Positions 41,268-50,814 of a DNA stretch of 64,000 nucleotides are shown one piece after another. The notes under the pieces were generated by a model. That model saw nothing but the letters and a program-made list of their open reading frames with translations. It was not told the DNA's origin and made no database searches. Positions within the stretch are counted from its first letter, which is position 1. Every line of letters begins with the position of its first letter. The position numbers and the translations under genes were made by a program. Source of the stretch: Brevinematales bacterium (GTDB taxonomy: Bacteria > Spirochaetota > Brevinematia > Brevinematales > Thermospiraceae); NCBI GenBank assembly GCA_026417555.1, contig JAOADA010000001.1, positions 523,245 through 587,244 of the forward strand, in the 5' to 3' direction.

Positions 41268-41837
41268 TTAGCGGTAGTGTACCGTCTTGTGAGAATCTCC
41301 CCCAAGAAATGCATTCACCTGAAGATGAAAACGCTTGATATCCTTGATCCCAAAGGTGGAAAGAAGCATCTGAAGAATATCCTGCTGGAGTTTCTCTCCA
41401 TAGTCACGGCAGGATTTTTCATAGGTGAGAAGCACATGGATATCCAATGCCACAAAACGACGCTTGAAGATAGCCACACTTACATCACAGTCCACCACTT
41501 CAGGCAAAAGCTGAAGCTGCTGGACAAGATATCCCTGGATAGCGGTCTTATGAATCTCCAGTTCTCCATAAGGAGTTCTCACATAAATAGTATGACTATA
41601 GAAATGCTCATAGTACCACCATCCCGCAACCCCAAGTCCTACAAGTGTCAATATCCACCCGACCACACTCAAAAAAGCAAGTGGTGACATACCCGTCGTA
41701 AAATGTATGGCCTGTTCCACAGGAAGTTGTGAACCTCGCCCAGCAATAAAAAGACACACTACCCCAACAAGAACCACCACGATCCAGGAAAGTTGCATAA
41801 GGATATTAAGGATTCTGCTTTTCGAGCGACTCGTCAT
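41268..41837 (-). CDS. amaP: AmaP-like membrane anchor of the Asp23 protein
   Basis: 189 residues with two membrane segments (about 12-32 and 52-75), then a soluble C-terminal domain with VRTPYGELEIHKTAIQGYL and VALDIHVLLTYEK that resembles the Asp23 fold itself. AmaP proteins in Firmicutes anchor Asp23 at the membrane. The gene overlaps the asp23-family gene by 32 bases after GAGGGG. Assignment rests on architecture and context. Confidence 0.7.
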   Translation of the reverse strand: MTSRSKSRILNILMQLSWIVVVLVGVVCLFIAGRGSQLPVEQAIHFTTGMSPLAFLSVVGWILTLVGLGVAGWWYYEHFYSHTIYVRTPYGELEIHKTAIQGYLVQQLQLLPEVVDCDVSVAIFKRRFVALDIHVLLTYEKSCRDYGEKLQQDILQMLLSTFGIKDIKRFHLQVNAFLGGDSHKTVHYR

Positions 41838-42131: not shown

Positions 42132-43475
42132 TTATTTCATCTTAAAGTTGTCCATGAACTTCGTTGAATAGTTCCCCTTGATAAAATCAGGATTGTCCAT
42201 CATCTGACGATGAAATGGGGCCGTTGTTTTGATGCCCTCAATCCGCATCTCATCAAGAAGCCGACGCATACGAGCAATGGCCTCTTGACGATCCCTTCCC
42301 CATGCCAAAACCTTGGCCACGAGAGAATCATAGTACTTGGGGATCTCATACCCCGTATAGATGTGACTATCAATCCGGATCCCAGGCCCCCCTGGAAAAT
42401 GAAGTTCTGTAATTTTTCCTGGTACAGGCATAAAATTCATATACGGGTCTTCGGCATTGATACGACACTCAATGGCATGACCATTGATCCTCAGGTCTTC
42501 CTGTCGGAAAGAGAGTTTTTCACCCATAGCCACAAGAATCTGCTCCTTAATAAGATCTACACCCGTAATCAACTCTGTCACTGGATGCTCAACCTGAATA
42601 CGGGCGTTCACTTCCATGAAATAGAACTGCTGACTCTCCTCGTCAAAGAGAAACTCCATCGTACCAGCACCGTAATATCCCGCGTGCAGAGCTCCACGAC
42701 ACGCTGCCTCACCCATTTTCTTGCGTATCTCTTGGGAAAGGGCTGGGCTTGGGGCTTCTTCAATAAGCTTCTGATGACGACGCTGGATAGAGCAATCCCT
42801 CTCAAAAAGATAGACAGCATTGCCATGTTTATCTGCAATAAACTGGATCTCAATGTGTCTTGGATTTTGAAGATACTTTTCTACATAGACATCAGGATTA
42901 CCAAACGCTGTTTGAGCCTCTGCTTGGGCAATAGGAAGAATACTTGCCAGTTCATCATCAGACCAAGCCACACGCATGCCTTTTCCTCCACCCCCTGCTG
43001 TGGCCTTCACAATCACAGGATACCCCACTTCATGAGCAAATTTCATTGCTTCAGACACGTCCTTGATAATCCCTGTTCCTGGGGTAATAGGAACACCCAC
43101 CTCACTCATGGTTTTTCTGGCGGAAGCCTTGTCCCCAAGAAGTTCTATAGCCTCAGGGGTTGGACCAATAAAGGTGATATTATGGTCCCGACAAATTCGA
43201 GAAAACTTGGCATTCTCAGAGAGAAACCCATAGCCGGGATGCACTGCATCCGCTCCGGTAATCTCTGCAGCACTGATGATACTCGGAATATTGAGATACG
43301 AATCCTTAGAAAGCGCCGGACCAATACAGACATCCTGATCTGCCAATCGTGTGTGGAGACTATCTTTGTCAGCCTCAGAATGGATGGCCACCGTCTTTAT
43401 GCCCAGTTCCTTGGCAGCTCGAATCACCCGAACGGCAATCTCTCCCCGGTTCGTTACAAGTATCTTTTTTATCAT
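42132..43475 (-). CDS. accC: Biotin carboxylase subunit of acetyl-CoA carboxylase
   Basis: 447 residues, full length. ATP-grasp enzyme that carboxylates biotin on BCCP. N-terminus ILVTNRGEIAVRVIRAA, GSHPGYGFLSEN-like HPGYGFLSENAKF, ATP lid KATAGGGGKGMRV near residue 160, and FMEVNARIQVEHPVTE near 285 carrying the metal-binding Glu and catalytic Arg. All key residues appear intact, so this subunit should be active, in contrast to the BCCP homologue upstream. AGGAGG precedes ATG 43475. accA and accD are not in the window. Confidence 0.94.
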   Translation of the reverse strand: MIKKILVTNRGEIAVRVIRAAKELGIKTVAIHSEADKDSLHTRLADQDVCIGPALSKDSYLNIPSIISAAEITGADAVHPGYGFLSENAKFSRICRDHNITFIGPTPEAIELLGDKASARKTMSEVGVPITPGTGIIKDVSEAMKFAHEVGYPVIVKATAGGGGKGMRVAWSDDELASILPIAQAEAQTAFGNPDVYVEKYLQNPRHIEIQFIADKHGNAVYLFERDCSIQRRHQKLIEEAPSPALSQEIRKKMGEAACRGALHAGYYGAGTMEFLFDEESQQFYFMEVNARIQVEHPVTELITGVDLIKEQILVAMGEKLSFRQEDLRINGHAIECRINAEDPYMNFMPVPGKITELHFPGGPGIRIDSHIYTGYEIPKYYDSLVAKVLAWGRDRQEAIARMRRLLDEMRIEGIKTTAPFHRQMMDNPDFIKGNYSTKFMDNFKMK

Positions 43476-43486
43476 TGCATCCTCCT

Positions 43487-43927
43487 TTACACCTCTAAAC
43501 GGAAAAGGGGCTGACCATATTCCACAGGCTGACCCTCTTCCACAAGGATCTCCTTCACTTTTCCATCATACTCACACACTACATCCTGAAGATGACCCAA
43601 CACACGAACATGGGCAATCACCTCTCCCTTCTTGACCGTGTCACGCAACTTCACATAGGCTTCTTTTGTCTTGGGATTCAATCGCGTAAAAACCCCAACC
43701 CACTTTGAGGTAACATCCTTGATGGGGGATTCTTGGGGAAGTGGAGATTTCACTTCCTGAGGAGAAGGTACCGGCACAGGAGAAGCAATGACCGGAGAGA
43801 TCACCGGTTTCTTAGATAGCCCACTCACCATCCGCACCTTGAGTTCACCCTGTTGAAACTCTATCTCTCCAACATCCACCTCTTCAAAAAGCATATACAA
43901 CTCTTTTAAATCTTTTACGGAAAACAT
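43487..43927 (-). CDS. accB: BCCP (AccB) homologue lacking the biotinylation lysine
   Basis: 146 residues from ATG 43927 behind GGAGGTG. The N-terminus (VKDLKELYMLFEEVDVGEIEFQQGE) matches AccB, a Pro/Val-rich linker covers about 41-70, and the C-terminal biotinyl fold is recognisable: WVGVFTRL, VKKGEVIAHV, GKVKEILVEEGQPVEYGQPLF. Aligned without gaps to the conserved 11-residue distance from Lys to the following Gly, the biotin Lys of EAMKM corresponds to Gly111 in VRVLGHLQ. The whole EAMKM motif is gone. It therefore cannot be biotinylated at the normal site. It may be a regulatory or structural BCCP, like plant BADC proteins, or a decaying copy. The frame and ribosome binding site are intact. 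Confidence 0.85.
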   Translation of the reverse strand: MFSVKDLKELYMLFEEVDVGEIEFQQGELKVRMVSGLSKKPVISPVIASPVPVPSPQEVKSPLPQESPIKDVTSKWVGVFTRLNPKTKEAYVKLRDTVKKGEVIAHVRVLGHLQDVVCEYDGKVKEILVEEGQPVEYGQPLFRLEV

Positions 43928-43962
43928 GTTCACACCTCCATCCATATTCCTTTTTTCCCTGC

Positions 43963-44523
43963 TTATTTCACCCTTTCAATATATCGATCATCTCGTGTAT
44001 CCACACGAATCTTTTCCCCAATCTGAACAAAAAGCGGCACCTGTACCACAGCTCCTGTCTCGAGCGTCGCAGGTTTTGACCCACCACTGACAGTATCCCC
44101 TCGAAGACCAGGATCTGTTTCCACAATCTCTAATTCTACAAACATAGGAGGTTCCACAGCAATCACTTGCCCCTCGTAAAAGGAAAGGTTACAGATCATC
44201 TCATTCTTGAGGTATTTTGCTGCCTCATCAACCACTTCTTCCGAAACATGAAACTGCTCATAACTCTCCGTATCCATGAAAACATATTCCTCCCCCTCTT
44301 TGTAAAGAAGCTGGGCCGGTCTTGTCTCTACCATCACATCCTCAAGATCTTCTCCTGCTCGAAACGTTTTTTCCACTACAGCATCACGCAGGAGATTTTT
44401 CAATTTTGTCCGCACCACCGCCCCACCTTTTCCAGGCTTGTGATGTTGAAACCATATCACTTTATACAGTTCGCCATCGAGTTTGATAACAGTACCCTTC
44501 CGAAGGTCATTCGATGATATCAT
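43963..44523 (-). CDS. efp: Elongation factor P
   Basis: 186 residues from ATG 44523, preceded by GGAGGAAGAT. EF-P relieves ribosome stalling at polyproline. The tip of domain I is HHKPGKGGA, with the usual modified Lys at about residue 32. ETDPGLRGDTVSGGSKPATLETGA is the EF-P C-terminal signature. The KPGKGGA form is compatible with EpmA-type beta-lysylation as well as other lysine modifications; no modification gene is in the window. Lies between pepP and the accB homologue, as in Bacillus. Confidence 0.96.
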   Translation of the reverse strand: MISSNDLRKGTVIKLDGELYKVIWFQHHKPGKGGAVVRTKLKNLLRDAVVEKTFRAGEDLEDVMVETRPAQLLYKEGEEYVFMDTESYEQFHVSEEVVDEAAKYLKNEMICNLSFYEGQVIAVEPPMFVELEIVETDPGLRGDTVSGGSKPATLETGAVVQVPLFVQIGEKIRVDTRDDRYIERVK

Positions 44524-44540: not shown

Positions 44541-45614
44541 TTACAAGTCATATTCAACCGTGGTCAACACCTCAGCTCCATGTTTTCGCACAACAACCAT
44601 GTCCTCAAGGCGTATCCCAAACCCTTCCTCTGGGAGATAAATCCCCGGTTCCACAGTAAACACCATCCCCTCTTGAAGGATCTGGCTATTTCCAAAACGA
44701 AGGTACGGATCCTCATGGATCTCGACCCCTACCCCATGCCCCGTAGAGTGCCAGAAATTGTCTGCATACCCAGCCTTTTGGATCACATCATAGGCTGCCG
44801 CATGGACTTTTTCTGCCGGAACACCTGGCTTTACGACAGCCTCTGCGGCTTTCAGGGCCTCTTCTACAATCCTCCTCACCTCTAAGATTTTCGGATTCTT
44901 TATTTTAACGGGAGAAAAACATCTTGTAAAGTCAGAACAATACCCATCCTTCAAAACTCCAAAGTCAAACATAACCACATCGTTTTTTTCAATCACCCGT
45001 GAGGATGCTGTCCCATGAGGAAGAGTGGTACGGTATCCAGAAGCCACAATCGGATCAAAGGAAAAGGCTTTTGCCCCTTTTTTCTTGAGAAAATACTCAA
45101 GCTCTGCCGCCACCTGCTCTTCTCTTTTGCCAGGTTTTGTCTGTCTAAGGATATAATAGTACCCCCACTCAGTAATCAAGAGATTTTGTTTGATAACCTC
45201 AATCTCCATGGCATCTTTCACCATTCGCATTTCCTTGACTATGGCTGTTTCCCCATAGTCAAGACTGGGCACCTGTTTCGAAAGATACTCATACAAGGCA
45301 AGAGGAAAAAGATTTTTATCCACAAGAAGCTTTGTCACACGTTCTTCCTGGATCATGGAAAGAAGACACTCCTTTCGGCCTTGTCTTCCTTCCACAAGCA
45401 AAAGATGGTAGGGGATTTTCACCTCATATTTGAGTTGTTCAGTATACCTCTTGTCAGTGATAAAAAAAACCCCTGTCGGAGTAAGAGCCAACACGGTATC
45501 ATCACCTGTAAATCCTGTAAGATAAAACACTTCTTCCCTTTTCAAGACAAGAAGGGCTTCTCCTCTCGTGAGCTTCTGCTGAACATATGAGGTTCTCCTA
45601 GCAAAATCAAACAT
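44541..45614 (-). CDS. Xaa-Pro aminopeptidase (M24 family)
   Basis: 357 residues. Creatinase N-terminal domain (about 1-125; EALLVLKREEVFYLTGFTGDD) and M24 pita-bread catalytic domain. Metal ligands are in FDFGVLKDGYCSDFTR (two Asp), HSTGHGVGVEIHEDPYLR (His), TVEPGIYLP (Glu) and GIRLEDMV (Glu). Removes N-terminal residues before proline. GGAG precedes ATG 45614. It heads the operon pepP-efp-accB-accC-asp23-amaP-murF; the pairing of this type of peptidase with efp is conserved in Firmicutes (yqhT-efp). Confidence 0.92.
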   Translation of the reverse strand: MFDFARRTSYVQQKLTRGEALLVLKREEVFYLTGFTGDDTVLALTPTGVFFITDKRYTEQLKYEVKIPYHLLLVEGRQGRKECLLSMIQEERVTKLLVDKNLFPLALYEYLSKQVPSLDYGETAIVKEMRMVKDAMEIEVIKQNLLITEWGYYYILRQTKPGKREEQVAAELEYFLKKKGAKAFSFDPIVASGYRTTLPHGTASSRVIEKNDVVMFDFGVLKDGYCSDFTRCFSPVKIKNPKILEVRRIVEEALKAAEAVVKPGVPAEKVHAAAYDVIQKAGYADNFWHSTGHGVGVEIHEDPYLRFGNSQILQEGMVFTVEPGIYLPEEGFGIRLEDMVVVRKHGAEVLTTVEYDL

Positions 45615-45697: not shown

Positions 45698-46519
45698 TCC
45701 AATATGGAACTCATTGCTCAGGGAGTAGCCAATATTGCATCCCCTCTTTTTGGGGGTATTCCTGCTACAGGGGCTATCGCAAGAACCGCTACAAATATCA
45801 AAAATGGTGGCCAAACACCTGTGGCTGGAATGGTACGCTCTCTGACTCTTCTTTTCATCCTCCTCTTTTTTGGAAAGTGGGCAAGCCTTATTCCATTGGC
45901 TTCCCTTGCCGCTGTACTCATAAAAGTAGCTATAAACATGAGTGAATATCAGGTCTTTCTCTCCATTTTCAAAACCACAAAATCTGACATAGCCGTTCTT
46001 CTCACCACTTTTTTGCTCACCGTGTTTATCGATCTTACGGTGGCTATTGAGGTAGGAATAGTCCTTGCGGCTCTCCTCTTTATGTATCGGATGTCGAATG
46101 TTACCCAGGTTTCTTCCATTACTCAGGAAACAGCAGAAGAAGAAACGCCAAATTCCACTCTTCTCTCTACCGAAAAAATACCCAAAGGTATTGAAGTCTT
46201 CGAGATTCAAGGGTCGTTGTTCTTTGGAGCGGCAGAAACCTTCAAAAGCCGTATCAGAAACATACAAAAACCTCCAAAGATACTCATCATTCATATGCGT
46301 TACGTGTATGCTCTCGATGCCACAGGCCTCCATGTCCTTGAAGATCTTTATCATAGATGTCAGCATGAAAAAACACGGCTTATGATTTCTGGAATACACG
46401 CTCAACCTATGTCAGTGTTGGTGAAAAGTGGGCTTGTTGAAAAGATTGGAGATGAAAACCTTTTTAAAGATCTCCAGGACGCTCTTTCCAAAGCAAAGAC
46501 TCTCCTTGCAAGCCCATAA
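45698..46519 (+). pseudogene. 5'-truncated SulP family anion transporter (C-terminal half)
   Basis: About 272 codons remain of a gene that should encode some 550-600 residues. The frame opens with SNMELIAQGVANIASPLFGGIPATGAIARTATN, a diagnostic middle segment of SulP transporters (normally SN-ELIAQG); upstream of 45698 the homology stops and the DNA is the pepP promoter region. About four or five membrane helices and a complete C-terminal STAS domain (from about EVFEIQGSLFFGAAETF to the end, with LDATGLHVLEDL) remain open. There is no ribosome binding site before ATG 45704. The N-terminal half of the transport core is missing, so it cannot transport. A STAS-bearing membrane fragment could still be made, which I consider unlikely. 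Confidence 0.8.
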
Positions 46520-46707: not shown

Positions 46708-46778
46708 AAAATATATTCTGAGAGGTGGATTTTCCCCACTCGAGGAGTCAAGCCCAATCAAGTCCAGAGGGAGGCCTG

Positions 46779-47075
46779 ATGGACAAGAGAATCGGTATCA
46801 TCGGTATCATGATCGAAGATTTTTCTCAGATATCTGCTGTATCTCGTCTCCTAGGAGAGTATAGCGATTGTATCCTTGGAAGACAAGGAATGAATCTCCG
46901 TGAAGAGCATCTCCGTGTCATCTCCCTCATTGTTGAGGCTACGACGGATGAGATGGGTGCCCTCACAGGCAAGTTAGGGCGTCTCCCCGGGGTGAGGGTC
47001 AAATCCATCCTCTCACGAACCAAGGAGGAGAGAGATGCAGACACTACCCGAGATTCCGTTCATCCCAAGGGATGA
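46779..47075 (+). CDS. TM1266-type iron-only hydrogenase system regulator
   Basis: 98 residues from ATG 46779, behind GGGAGG. The family (named for T. maritima TM1266, NikR-C/ACT-like ferredoxin fold) is found next to hydG/hydE in many anaerobes: IGIIGIMIEDFSQISAVSRLLGEYSDCILGRQGMNL, then ISLIVEATTDEMGALTGKLGRLPGV. It is presumed to be a small sensor or regulator of hydrogenase assembly; no DNA-binding domain is visible. Overlaps hydG by 41 bases, so they are co-translated. Confidence 0.85.
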   Translation: MDKRIGIIGIMIEDFSQISAVSRLLGEYSDCILGRQGMNLREEHLRVISLIVEATTDEMGALTGKLGRLPGVRVKSILSRTKEERDADTTRDSVHPKG

Positions 47076-48438
47076 GCTTTATCACCGACTTGAGGATGCT
47101 AAAAAGCACTATTCAAGAGAAAAACTTCATGACATCCTTCATACCGCCCTGAAACTCAAGGGGCTTTCTCTTGTTGATGTCTCCCTTCTTCTTCAAGCAG
47201 AAACTGATGATGATATTCATCTCATCCTTTCCGCTGCTCATACCGTGAAAGAGGCTATTTACGGCAAGAGAATGGTTCTCTTTGCCCCCCTTTACCTAGG
47301 AAATTACTGCTCCAACAATTGTCTTTATTGTGCCTTCCGAAAGGACAATATACGCCTTGGTCGTGCTCTACTTACCCCTCAGCAGATTGAAGAAGAAACC
47401 AAAGCCCTTCTGAAACAAGGGCACAAGCGTATCCTCATGCTCACAGGGGAGGATGAGCATACCCCTCTTGACTATGTTCTTGAGGCCATCCGTGTTGTCT
47501 ATGCCACACGGGACGATCACGGTTCCTCTATCCGACGCATCAACGTCGAGATTGCTCCCCTCGATGTCGAGGGTTTCCGTCGTCTCAAAGCAGAGAAAAT
47601 CGGCACCTATGCCTGTTTTCAGGAAACATACGACGAGGTCCTCTACACAAAGTACCACCCTTCTGGTCCCAAATCTGACTACCTCTGGCGACTTTTCGTG
47701 ATGGACAGAGCAATGAAGGGGGGAATAGATGATGTAGGGCTCGGTGTCCTTTTTGGCCTTGCTGACTATCGCTTTGAAGTGCTTGCCCTTCTTCTCCATG
47801 CCCAACATCTTGAACACTCGTTTGGATGTGGCCCTCACACTATCAGTGTGCCTCGTATTGAACCAGCAGATGGCGCCCCACTCTCGACCCATGTTCCCTA
47901 TCCTGTCTCTGACAAAGATTTCAAAAAGATTGTGGCTATCATTCGTTTGGCTCTCCCCTATACAGGAATTATCCTTTCTACAAGAGAAAATGAGACCCTC
48001 CGGCAAGAGCTCTTCCATTACGGGGTGAGCCAGATCTCTGCTGGCTCACGTACCAATCCGGGGGCGTATGCTCACCCCGATGATACCACAGGAAGCCAAT
48101 TCTCTCTTGGTGACCACCGAAGCCTGGATGAAGTTATCTCGGCTCTGATTGACGACGGGTTTATACCATCTTTTTGCACTGGATGTTACCGCAAAGGACG
48201 TGTAGGACAAGATTTCATGGACTTGGCCAGGCCAGGACTCATCCAAAAATTTTGCATGCCCAATGGAATCTTCTCTTTTCGAGAGTATTTAGAGGATTAT
48301 GCCTCACCACAAACAAAGGAAAAAGGTCTTCGGTTAATTGCCCATCTTGTTTCCGAAATAAAAGACCACAACCTCAAGACAAAAACACAAAAAGGACTCA
48401 CAGAAATCATGGAGGGAAAACGTGATGTCTACTACTAG
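47035..48438 (+). CDS. hydG: [FeFe]-hydrogenase maturase HydG
   Basis: 467 residues, standard length. Radical SAM tyrosine lyase that makes the CO and CN ligands of the H-cluster. The SAM cluster motif is NYCSNNCLYC (Cys92, Cys96, Cys99). The C-terminal auxiliary cluster motif CTGC...C fits CxxC-x22-C exactly (FCTGCYRKGRVGQDF to KFCMPNG), which separates HydG from ThiH. AGGAGAGAG precedes ATG 47035. Second gene of the operon, overlapping its neighbours at both ends. Confidence 0.97.
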   Translation: MQTLPEIPFIPRDELYHRLEDAKKHYSREKLHDILHTALKLKGLSLVDVSLLLQAETDDDIHLILSAAHTVKEAIYGKRMVLFAPLYLGNYCSNNCLYCAFRKDNIRLGRALLTPQQIEEETKALLKQGHKRILMLTGEDEHTPLDYVLEAIRVVYATRDDHGSSIRRINVEIAPLDVEGFRRLKAEKIGTYACFQETYDEVLYTKYHPSGPKSDYLWRLFVMDRAMKGGIDDVGLGVLFGLADYRFEVLALLLHAQHLEHSFGCGPHTISVPRIEPADGAPLSTHVPYPVSDKDFKKIVAIIRLALPYTGIILSTRENETLRQELFHYGVSQISAGSRTNPGAYAHPDDTTGSQFSLGDHRSLDEVISALIDDGFIPSFCTGCYRKGRVGQDFMDLARPGLIQKFCMPNGIFSFREYLEDYASPQTKEKGLRLIAHLVSEIKDHNLKTKTQKGLTEIMEGKRDVYY

Positions 48439-49474
48439 CCCTTTTCCTGTTCCTCAGTATCTTGCAAAGCTCTCTTTTGATGGCTTAAGAGAATGGTTCT
48501 CTAGCCAGCCGACATCCGTTCTTCTTTCCTTGGCTCAGACAGTGTGTGCAAACACATATGGAAACAAGGTTTATCTCCGAGGCTTAATTGAATTTTCCAA
48601 TCACTGCTTTTGTGACTGTCTTTACTGTGGTATCCGTCATTCAAACCACAAGGTAGAACGCTACACCCTCTCAGAAGAAGAGATCATCGCTATCGTTCAG
48701 AGGGGGATAGCAAGAGGATTGAAAACCTTTGTCCTCCAAAGCGGAGAGAACCGACAAGACCTCCCAGAAACCATGTCTCGGCTCCTTCGCCGTCTTCGCC
48801 GTTTTGCCAACGAGGATATAGCCTTCACACTTTCCTGTGGAGTATATCCTCGCGAAGTCTATCGAGAATGGAAAAAAGCCGGAGCAAACCGTTATCTTCT
48901 TCGTTTTGAAACCTCAGATGAGGATCTCTTCTCTCACCTTTGCCCTGGAAAAAGCCTTTCCAGGCGACTTCAGGCAATCGAGGACCTTAAAATCGAAGGG
49001 TATGCCGTCGGTTCGGGGTTTATGGTTGGGCTTCCCGGAGAGACACTTGACACTCGGATCCAGAATGTTTTCCTCTGCCGAGAACTCCAACTTGAGATGG
49101 TAGGAATTGGGCCTTTTCTCCCCCATCCAGATACCCCTCTCGCCTCCCATCATTCTCTTCCCATCGAGGAAACAGTACGCATGACAGCCCTGTTAAGACT
49201 TCTCCTTCCTTGGGCTAACATTCCTGCCACAACGGCTGCCGGTTCCCTCCACCCACGAGGAAGAGAAATGATGCTTGAAGCAGGTGCCAATGTCCTCATG
49301 CCTAACCTCACCCCCACAGAGAAAAAACGCCACTATCTCCTCTATGCCAACAAAATCTGTCTTGATGAAGACGGATGGGAATGTCTCTCGTGCCTTTCCC
49401 TTCGCGTTGCCTCCATCGGTAAATCTCTCTCTTTTGCAAAAGGAGAAAGCCTCTTGAGGGAGGAAAAAAGATGA
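48425..49474 (+). CDS. hydE: [FeFe]-hydrogenase maturase HydE
   Basis: 349 residues from ATG 48425 behind GGAGGG (a GTG just before is possible). Radical SAM enzyme that processes the HydG product toward the diiron subcluster. The SAM cluster motif is HCFCDCLYCG (Cys61, Cys65, Cys68), and the C-terminal optional site Cys-x7-Cys-x2-Cys is present (CLDEDGWECLSC). SGFMVGLPGET and GIGPFLPHPDTPLA are HydE signatures. Overlaps hydG by 14 bases and the next gene by four. Confidence 0.96.
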   Translation: MSTTSPFPVPQYLAKLSFDGLREWFSSQPTSVLLSLAQTVCANTYGNKVYLRGLIEFSNHCFCDCLYCGIRHSNHKVERYTLSEEEIIAIVQRGIARGLKTFVLQSGENRQDLPETMSRLLRRLRRFANEDIAFTLSCGVYPREVYREWKKAGANRYLLRFETSDEDLFSHLCPGKSLSRRLQAIEDLKIEGYAVGSGFMVGLPGETLDTRIQNVFLCRELQLEMVGIGPFLPHPDTPLASHHSLPIEETVRMTALLRLLLPWANIPATTAAGSLHPRGREMMLEAGANVLMPNLTPTEKKRHYLLYANKICLDEDGWECLSCLSLRVASIGKSLSFAKGESLLREEKR

Positions 49475-50814
49475 AATACGGACCACAAACCGTTCTTGCC
49501 GTCCAAAACTTTGGAGAAGGAAGAACTCCTCCGTGCCTTGTCAAGGCCTATGCCGAGGTAAAAAAGGCTTGCGTCATGGCTATACAAAAGACAGAACAAA
49601 GCTTTTCTCCCCCTGTGTATGAGAGTATCCTCCAAGCACTCGACGAAGTTATCCAGGGACAGTGGAATGATGAATTTGTGGTCCCCCTTCAACAGGGAGG
49701 AGCAGGCACAAGCCTCAACATGAATATCAACGAAGTAGTCGCCTCACGTGCCACAGAAATCCTCTCCCAAACCCATCCTGACTCCACCCCCATTCATCCC
49801 CTCGAACATATCAATCGCTACCAATCCACCAATGACACCCTTCCAACAGCCATTACCCTCTGTCTTCTTCGTGATCTCTCTGAGGTAGAAAAAAAAGTGG
49901 TGACTCTCCAATCTATTTTAGTAGAGAAGGAGTCTACCTATGGCCTCACCCTCATCATGGGGCGAACAGAACTTCAGGATGCTCTCCCTATGATGTTAGG
50001 GCAAATCTTTGGAAGCTGGGCAGGAATGATTGAGAGAGACCGTTGGCGCTTGCACAAACTCAAAGACCGGATTCGCCTCATTGCCCTTGGAGGAACAGCC
50101 GTAGGTACCGGTTTTCCAGCCCCTCAAGCCTATGTTCACGCTGCCGAACAATTTCTCCGTGAAATTACAGGACTCCCCATTGCCCGTTCTCAGAATCTTC
50201 CCGATGCTATTGCTCATCATGATGATTGGTCTGAGTTAGCCAGCGGTTACCTTCTCCTTGCTAAAAACCTCGAGAAAATGGCTAACGACTTTCTCTTCTA
50301 TACCTCTTCCTTTTGTGGGGAAATGGAACACCCAGAACTCCAGTATGGATCTACTCTCATGGCAGCCAAAAGCAATCCCATCCTTCTCGAATGGATCAAA
50401 GGAATGTGCTTGAGAGCCAGCCATTTGTCTCATCTCATAGAAGATTATCACAGTGAAGGCAACCTCCAACTCAATGCGTTTGTTCCTTTCATGGCTGAGG
50501 CGCTCTTTGAAATAGCCTATCTTCTCAAAAAATCTCTCGATGGTATGCTTCGTTTTCTCTCCATTCTCCAGATAAAACCAGATGCTCTCGCCAATCATAT
50601 TCATCACTCCAAAGCCGTACTCAATCTTCTTCTTCCTCTTCTGGGATACACCAAGACCAAGGAAATTGTCTCTCAGATGCCACCCCTTTCAGATCTTGCC
50701 AGTCTCCAAACATGGCTTCTCTCCCAGGGAATTTCCCAAGAGATTGTCACACTTCTTGAACCACCCCATATCACACGACTCATCCGAAATTTTCGACAGG
50801 AGAAAAACCCATGA
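49471..50814 (+). CDS. aspA: Aspartase/fumarase superfamily enzyme, probable aspartate ammonia-lyase
   Basis: 447 residues. Superfamily blocks are in order: GGAGTSLNMNINEVVASRA (first conserved region), GRTELQDALPMMLGQ (aspartases have GRTQLQDA, fumarases have H), GTAVGTGFPAP, and the signature loop GSTLMAAKSNP, which keeps the catalytic first Ser, Lys and Asn of GSSxMPxKxN but has changed positions around them. The reaction is probably aspartate to fumarate and ammonia. It is fully embedded in the hyd maturation operon (ATGA overlaps on both sides), which suggests that it supplies ammonia for the azadithiolate bridge. That functional link is inference. Fumarase or argininosuccinate-lyase-like activity cannot be excluded. 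Confidence 0.84.
   Translation: MKYGPQTVLAVQNFGEGRTPPCLVKAYAEVKKACVMAIQKTEQSFSPPVYESILQALDEVIQGQWNDEFVVPLQQGGAGTSLNMNINEVVASRATEILSQTHPDSTPIHPLEHINRYQSTNDTLPTAITLCLLRDLSEVEKKVVTLQSILVEKESTYGLTLIMGRTELQDALPMMLGQIFGSWAGMIERDRWRLHKLKDRIRLIALGGTAVGTGFPAPQAYVHAAEQFLREITGLPIARSQNLPDAIAHHDDWSELASGYLLLAKNLEKMANDFLFYTSSFCGEMEHPELQYGSTLMAAKSNPILLEWIKGMCLRASHLSHLIEDYHSEGNLQLNAFVPFMAEALFEIAYLLKKSLDGMLRFLSILQIKPDALANHIHHSKAVLNLLLPLLGYTKTKEIVSQMPPLSDLASLQTWLLSQGISQEIVTLLEPPHITRLIRNFRQEKNP

Follow-up and report, generated by a model that had tools for sequence, protein, structure and literature searches.

AccX, a lysine-less AccB paralogue encoded beside accC in spirochaetes, is a candidate non-catalytic subunit of acetyl-CoA carboxylase

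Gene organization of the accX locus

The window analysed here is a 64,000-nucleotide stretch of a Brevinematales genome (GCA_026417555.1, contig JAOADA010000001.1, positions 523,245 to 587,244). Its minus strand carries an operon with the order pepQ-efp-accX-accC-asp23-amaP-like-murF, in which successive genes are separated by 17, 35, 11, 20, -32 and 9 nt. The name accX was coined in this analysis for the AccB-like gene at 43487-43927 (-). Upstream of it lie efp for elongation factor P (43963-44523, -) and, as the upstream gene of the cluster, a pepQ-like Xaa-Pro peptidase gene (44541-45614, -). Downstream are accC for biotin carboxylase (42132-43475, -), an Asp23-family gene (PF03780; 41806-42111, -) and a gene for an AmaP-like membrane protein (41268-41837, -; NF033218, 54.0 bits with a cut-off of 55), which overlaps asp23. 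This matches the efp-accB-accC-asp23 order given in the original prediction, with accX as its AccB-like gene.

AccC scored 729 bits (cut-off 626.5), and its catalytic motifs are intact. The agreement of its active-site motifs with those of solved biotin carboxylases is consistent with the functional enzyme that had been proposed. accX starts with ATG, has GGAGG 8 nt upstream of this codon and is open throughout, so that codons, start and frame are intact as described before. An alternative start at 43945 is likewise open.

Divergent from pepQ, positions 45704-46519 (+) encode the C-terminal part only of a SulP sulfate permease (PF00916 positions 279-379) together with STAS; this is apparently a 5'-truncated transporter gene. 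Positions 46725-50814 (+) encode a TM1266-like hydrogenase regulator, two radical SAM proteins resembling HydG and HydE, and a fumarase/aspartase-type lyase, and probably represent a [FeFe]-hydrogenase maturation cluster.

Biotin site and predicted structure of AccX

AccX (146 aa) consists of an N-terminal helix and hairpin, a Pro/Ser/Ala-rich linker and a biotinyl domain. A profile of AccX and its relatives was aligned with E. coli AccB over the full length from residue 1 (E = 6.5e-26). VLGHL replaces the EAMKM of AccB, and Gly111 (codon GGT, 43595-43597, -) aligns with E. coli Lys122 without an indel, exactly where a glycine had been predicted in place of the biotinylated lysine. The biotinyl fold and the N-terminal segment of AccB are thus retained in a full-length homologue that has no biotin-accepting lysine in an (A/S)MK motif. 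The thumb is unchanged in length and has lost its Tyr and Pro (Thr81 for Tyr92, Lys86 for Pro97). On TIGR00531, the NCBI equivalog model for AccB, AccX reached 73.5 bits, below the cut-off of 115.2. Because both the lysine and the equivalog score define AccB, the protein should not be called AccB.

The biotinyl domain was predicted intact by AlphaFold (pLDDT ~92), with an N-terminal helix at residues 4-16 followed by a hairpin. Strands 103-109 and 112-117 flank Leu110-Gly111 in the model, at the hairpin tip where biotin would hang. Best matches to the model among solved structures were E. coli BCCP, alone and with biotin carboxylase, and Arabidopsis BCCP1. Comparison with 4hr7_G (E. coli BCCP in the BC-BCCP crystal) gave a TM score of 0.94 by target length and 1.2 Å. 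No plant BADC was among the PDB matches of the AccX profile. The model and the full-length profile alignment bear out the clear biotinyl fold noted earlier.

Residues were compared between 58 lysine-bearing AccBs and 21 spirochaete AccX proteins (E. coli AccB numbering). E119-A120-M121-K122, Tyr92 and N125 are nearly or fully invariant in the AccBs, and all are replaced or variable in AccX; thumb Pro97 is Lys in 18 of the 21. Core residues G89, F91, V109, G112, G133, L139, V146 and E147 as well as the N-terminal Glu20 are retained. Strict residues specific to AccX are Arg82, Lys93, Arg95 (KLRD), Lys123, Glu126, Tyr137 and Gln139.

Carboxylase subunits in the same genome

Four proteins, AccA, AccB, AccC and AccD, are regarded as necessary for acetyl-CoA carboxylase in bacteria. 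Whole-genome family searches returned, besides an HlyD-like adaptor, only two carrier-like proteins, AccX and a canonical AccB. The latter carries EAMKVM, scored 119.9 bits on TIGR00531 (above the 115.2 cut-off) and is encoded in a mutS operon on a different contig, unlinked to accX, where 45 nt separate its gene from mutS downstream. Another BCCP, one of the two options originally considered, therefore does exist. A third Biotin_lipoyl match (C28:52191) was rejected as a BCCP, being the HlyD-like efflux adaptor. BirA (190 bits), AccD (393 bits) and AccA (431 bits), for which a genome search had been suggested, were all found.

The neighbour of accX is the sole biotin carboxylase of the genome, and the genome search found no further AccC that could serve AccB. 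The AccC encoded with accX must therefore serve the AccB from the unlinked locus. Hence, the genome has all subunits of acetyl-CoA carboxylase and, in addition, a carrier-like protein unable to be biotinylated. Service of AccC and AccX in a different biotin-dependent enzyme would agree with the location of the accX-accC pair apart from accA, accD and accB, but is very improbable given the single AccC, which scores as an acetyl-CoA carboxylase subunit, and the restriction of other biotinyl-domain proteins to AccB and the HlyD-like adaptor.

Conservation across spirochaetes

Relatives of the window in the public collection were found in Brevinematales and other spirochaetes. AccX occurs in at least 27 spirochaete genomes from 16 family codes, a lower bound read from best matches only, and has G, H, N or Q at the biotin site. 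Both same-genus genomes, which are independent, carry a Gly-bearing AccX (83% and 79% identity), and Gly occupies the site in all same-order relatives with the gene (families f2 and f3). The proposed conservation of the Gly thus holds in genus and order and widens to four residues across the phylum.

In almost every relative, accX immediately precedes accC; it often follows efp, and accX and accC stay adjacent even where efp or asp23 neighbours went undetected. Every near-complete AccX genome that was checked has a gene for a lysine-bearing AccB at another locus; none was found in three AccX-carrying genomes (G007, G030 and G058), all of them incomplete MAGs. Exactly one AccC was present in 18 of 19 further AccX spirochaete genomes, and the remaining genome (G041), in which a contig ends inside accC, gave none. 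Among the spirochaetes without AccX that were read, an ordinary lysine-bearing accB adjoins accC.

The persistent pairing with accC, together with the retained AccB N-terminal segment, argues against a protein that no longer belongs to the carboxylase and has taken on a different role within the operon, such as one alongside EF-P or the envelope proteins Asp23 and AmaP. Such a role is considered quite unlikely, even though asp23, amaP and efp share the operon and AccX has residues absent from AccB (K93, R95 of KLRD, E126).

Family f5 (G013-G015), which belongs to the same class, has a lysine-less AccB-like gene (L158 in G014, L178 in G013) that does not adjoin accC. It falls elsewhere in the tree than other AccX and possibly has a separate origin.

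Selection and phylogeny

Between the window genome and G002, dN/dS was 0.06 for AccX and 0.065 for the true AccB, ratios that are rough because synonymous sites are near saturation. Non-synonymous divergence, which is unaffected by saturation, was low (0.10 for AccX and 0.15 for the true AccB). AccX is thus under purifying selection and conserved, as expected of a functional gene. Its score below the AccB equivalog cut-off could also be produced by a sequencing error, a pseudogene or a decaying duplicate. This has negligible probability in view of the concordance between independent genomes, an uninterrupted reading frame, the dN/dS of ~0.06 and the age of the lineage. Sharing of the Gly by same-genus and same-order genomes excludes chance or sequencing error as its source, the latter having been raised as an objection to the prediction. 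Neither a second reading with EAMK nor a loss of accA and accD together with decay, the other objections, was encountered: AccA and AccD are present and the gene is under purifying selection.

A tree was computed from 114 AccB-like proteins, short sequences for which many deep forks stay open. One clade (SH-aLRT 97) contains 23 of the 26 spirochaete AccX. Apart from it, 19 of 20 unlinked AccBs cluster (support 90) in a group that also takes in three Planctomycetota AccBs. As both groups hold largely the same families, the AccX/AccB pair has long been co-retained. Most simply, the tree would reflect a duplication long ago after which both copies were retained, with a tentative order of events given the short proteins and deep forks. 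The Planctomycetota proteins that group with the unlinked spirochaete AccBs (L047, L074 and L090; support 90) are accC-linked canonical AccBs, hinting at transfer as the source of the unlinked copy.

Lysine-less AccB homologues in a second phylum

Two lysine-less matches of the public scan (L069 and L114) belong to one other phylum, which at a guess is Armatimonadota. An AccB-like match to the L069 protein was found in 80 of 81 sampled genomes of this phylum, and nearly all have two. In the 30 accC-linked copies that were read, the site residue is Gly (15), Lys (9), Arg (3), Thr (2) or Ser (1). These copies are mostly without a thumb, and the unlinked copies read retain EAMK. Loci L218-L274 (genomes G411-G491) show this arrangement of an accC-linked AccB variable at the biotin site beside an unlinked canonical AccB. 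Judged by their sequences, the Lys, Arg, Ser, Thr and Gly copies are apparent intermediates of a change from carrier to non-carrier. Because the lysine is still present in part of the accC-linked copies, its absence does not make up the entire function in this phylum.

By parsimony, the lysine state must have changed no fewer than 5 times within the second-phylum group and 7 times over the whole tree. A single origin of AccX in both phyla was neither rejected nor established by the AU test (p = 0.67).

Proposed role of AccX

AccX keeps the fold and the N-terminus of AccB and has given up the biotin-associated residues. Its gene lies with that of the sole AccC, and it is retained beside a true AccB. 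The best explanation of this combination is a non-catalytic subunit. Among the possible roles, that of a lysine-less AccB paralogue kept in the AccC-AccB half of acetyl-CoA carboxylase is regarded as fairly probable. AccX would be made beside, and probably in step with, AccC. Since it retains the N-terminal segment of AccB as well as the biotinyl fold, it would most likely either occupy part of the carrier sites on AccC or pair with the true AccB. As an assembly partner it would fix the composition of the AccC-AccB subcomplex, and it may cap its activity. Biotinylated AccB is made from an unlinked gene, and its level relative to AccX could therefore set carboxylase output. Three observations fit a non-catalytic subunit less well: the f5 gene neither adjoins accC nor groups with other AccX, the AccX-specific surface motif KLRD could mean a partner other than AccC, and the lysine is kept in some accC-linked copies of the second phylum.

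In plants, BADC proteins have been explained by two models, either as inhibitors that replace BCCP or as a "glue" that assembles BC and BCCP (PMC11926652). Like BADC1-3, AccX is homologous to BCCP, lacks the biotinylation motif and occurs together with a real BCCP and biotin carboxylase (PMC11926652). Unlike them it is bacterial, without a plastid, and encoded beside accC; its binding to AccC or AccB is presumed, and the likeness is proposed at the level of role. On the best reading, AccX would work like plant BADC, with an assembly partner likelier than a pure inhibitor. The premises of the non-biotinylated, BADC-like regulator originally suggested have stood: AccX is conserved, has lost the lysine, evolves under purifying selection, resembles AccB from end to end and is tied to accC, with a true AccB in all near-complete genomes checked. 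BADC-like action itself can be put forward by analogy.

As a pure inhibitor, AccX would be a dominant-negative carrier that competes with AccB for AccC and throttles malonyl-CoA synthesis by its abundance, following the first plant BADC model. Loss of the lysine from an otherwise intact fold would permit this, and inhibition is one of the published BADC models (PMC11926652). The operon also contains a relative of B. subtilis YqhY, the loss of which leads to suppressor mutations in carboxylase subunits and is thought to raise carboxylase activity (PMC5437119). However, accX and its presumed target are encoded in one tight operon and not regulated separately, which suits a constant subunit better, and recent plant work favours the assembly role (PMC11926652). 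Pure inhibition is therefore judged rather unlikely. Encoding of accX with accC suggests a constant stoichiometric part, by which control of assembly and composition is favoured and restraint is possible.

A further proposal is the ancient and partly parallel evolution of a fifth carboxylase subunit in bacteria of two or more phyla. This would be a biotin-less carrier made with AccC and forming mixed AccC-AccB-AccX complexes. As a bacterial counterpart of BADC, it would have extant intermediates (Lys, Arg, Ser, Thr or Gly at the site) that trace its emergence. The proposal is given an even chance. If true, such a conserved subunit would change the view of carboxylase assembly and control in parts of at least two phyla.

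Comparison with known systems

With AccB/BCCP (TIGR00531; E. coli 4hr7, 1bdo), AccX shares the full-length architecture, biotinyl fold, N-terminal helix and place upstream of accC. It differs by the missing biotin-accepting lysine and EAMKM, the lost thumb Tyr/Pro, the strict KLRD and the true AccB elsewhere in the genome. The B. subtilis accB-accC-yqhY operon likewise contains an Asp23-family gene, YqhY being a small acc-operon gene tied to carboxylase control (PMC5437119). Asp23 and AccX are unrelated proteins and mere neighbours here; by analogy, the shared operon is suggestive of a link to carboxylase control. Synechocystis PII (GlnB) binds BCCP (PMC5080355) and, as proposed for AccX, acts on acetyl-CoA carboxylase via the carrier subunit, but protein and mechanism are unrelated.

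The open-access literature searched, which mostly leaves subscription papers outside its scope, contained plant BADC papers and no precedent for a bacterial lysine-less AccB. A Chloroflexus carboxylase paper was rejected as precedent, as it concerns a fused biotinylated BCCP. A 2011 biotin carboxylase survey reported no acetyl-CoA carboxylase in its 3 spirochaetes and could thus not have seen AccX.

Among plant researchers it is contested whether BADC inhibits the enzyme or helps to assemble it. Reconstitution would be easier for an independent bacterial system that has a single AccC, AccB and AccX, and would make this question directly testable. Annotation pipelines may label AccX as AccB and thereby misplace the true carrier in these genomes.
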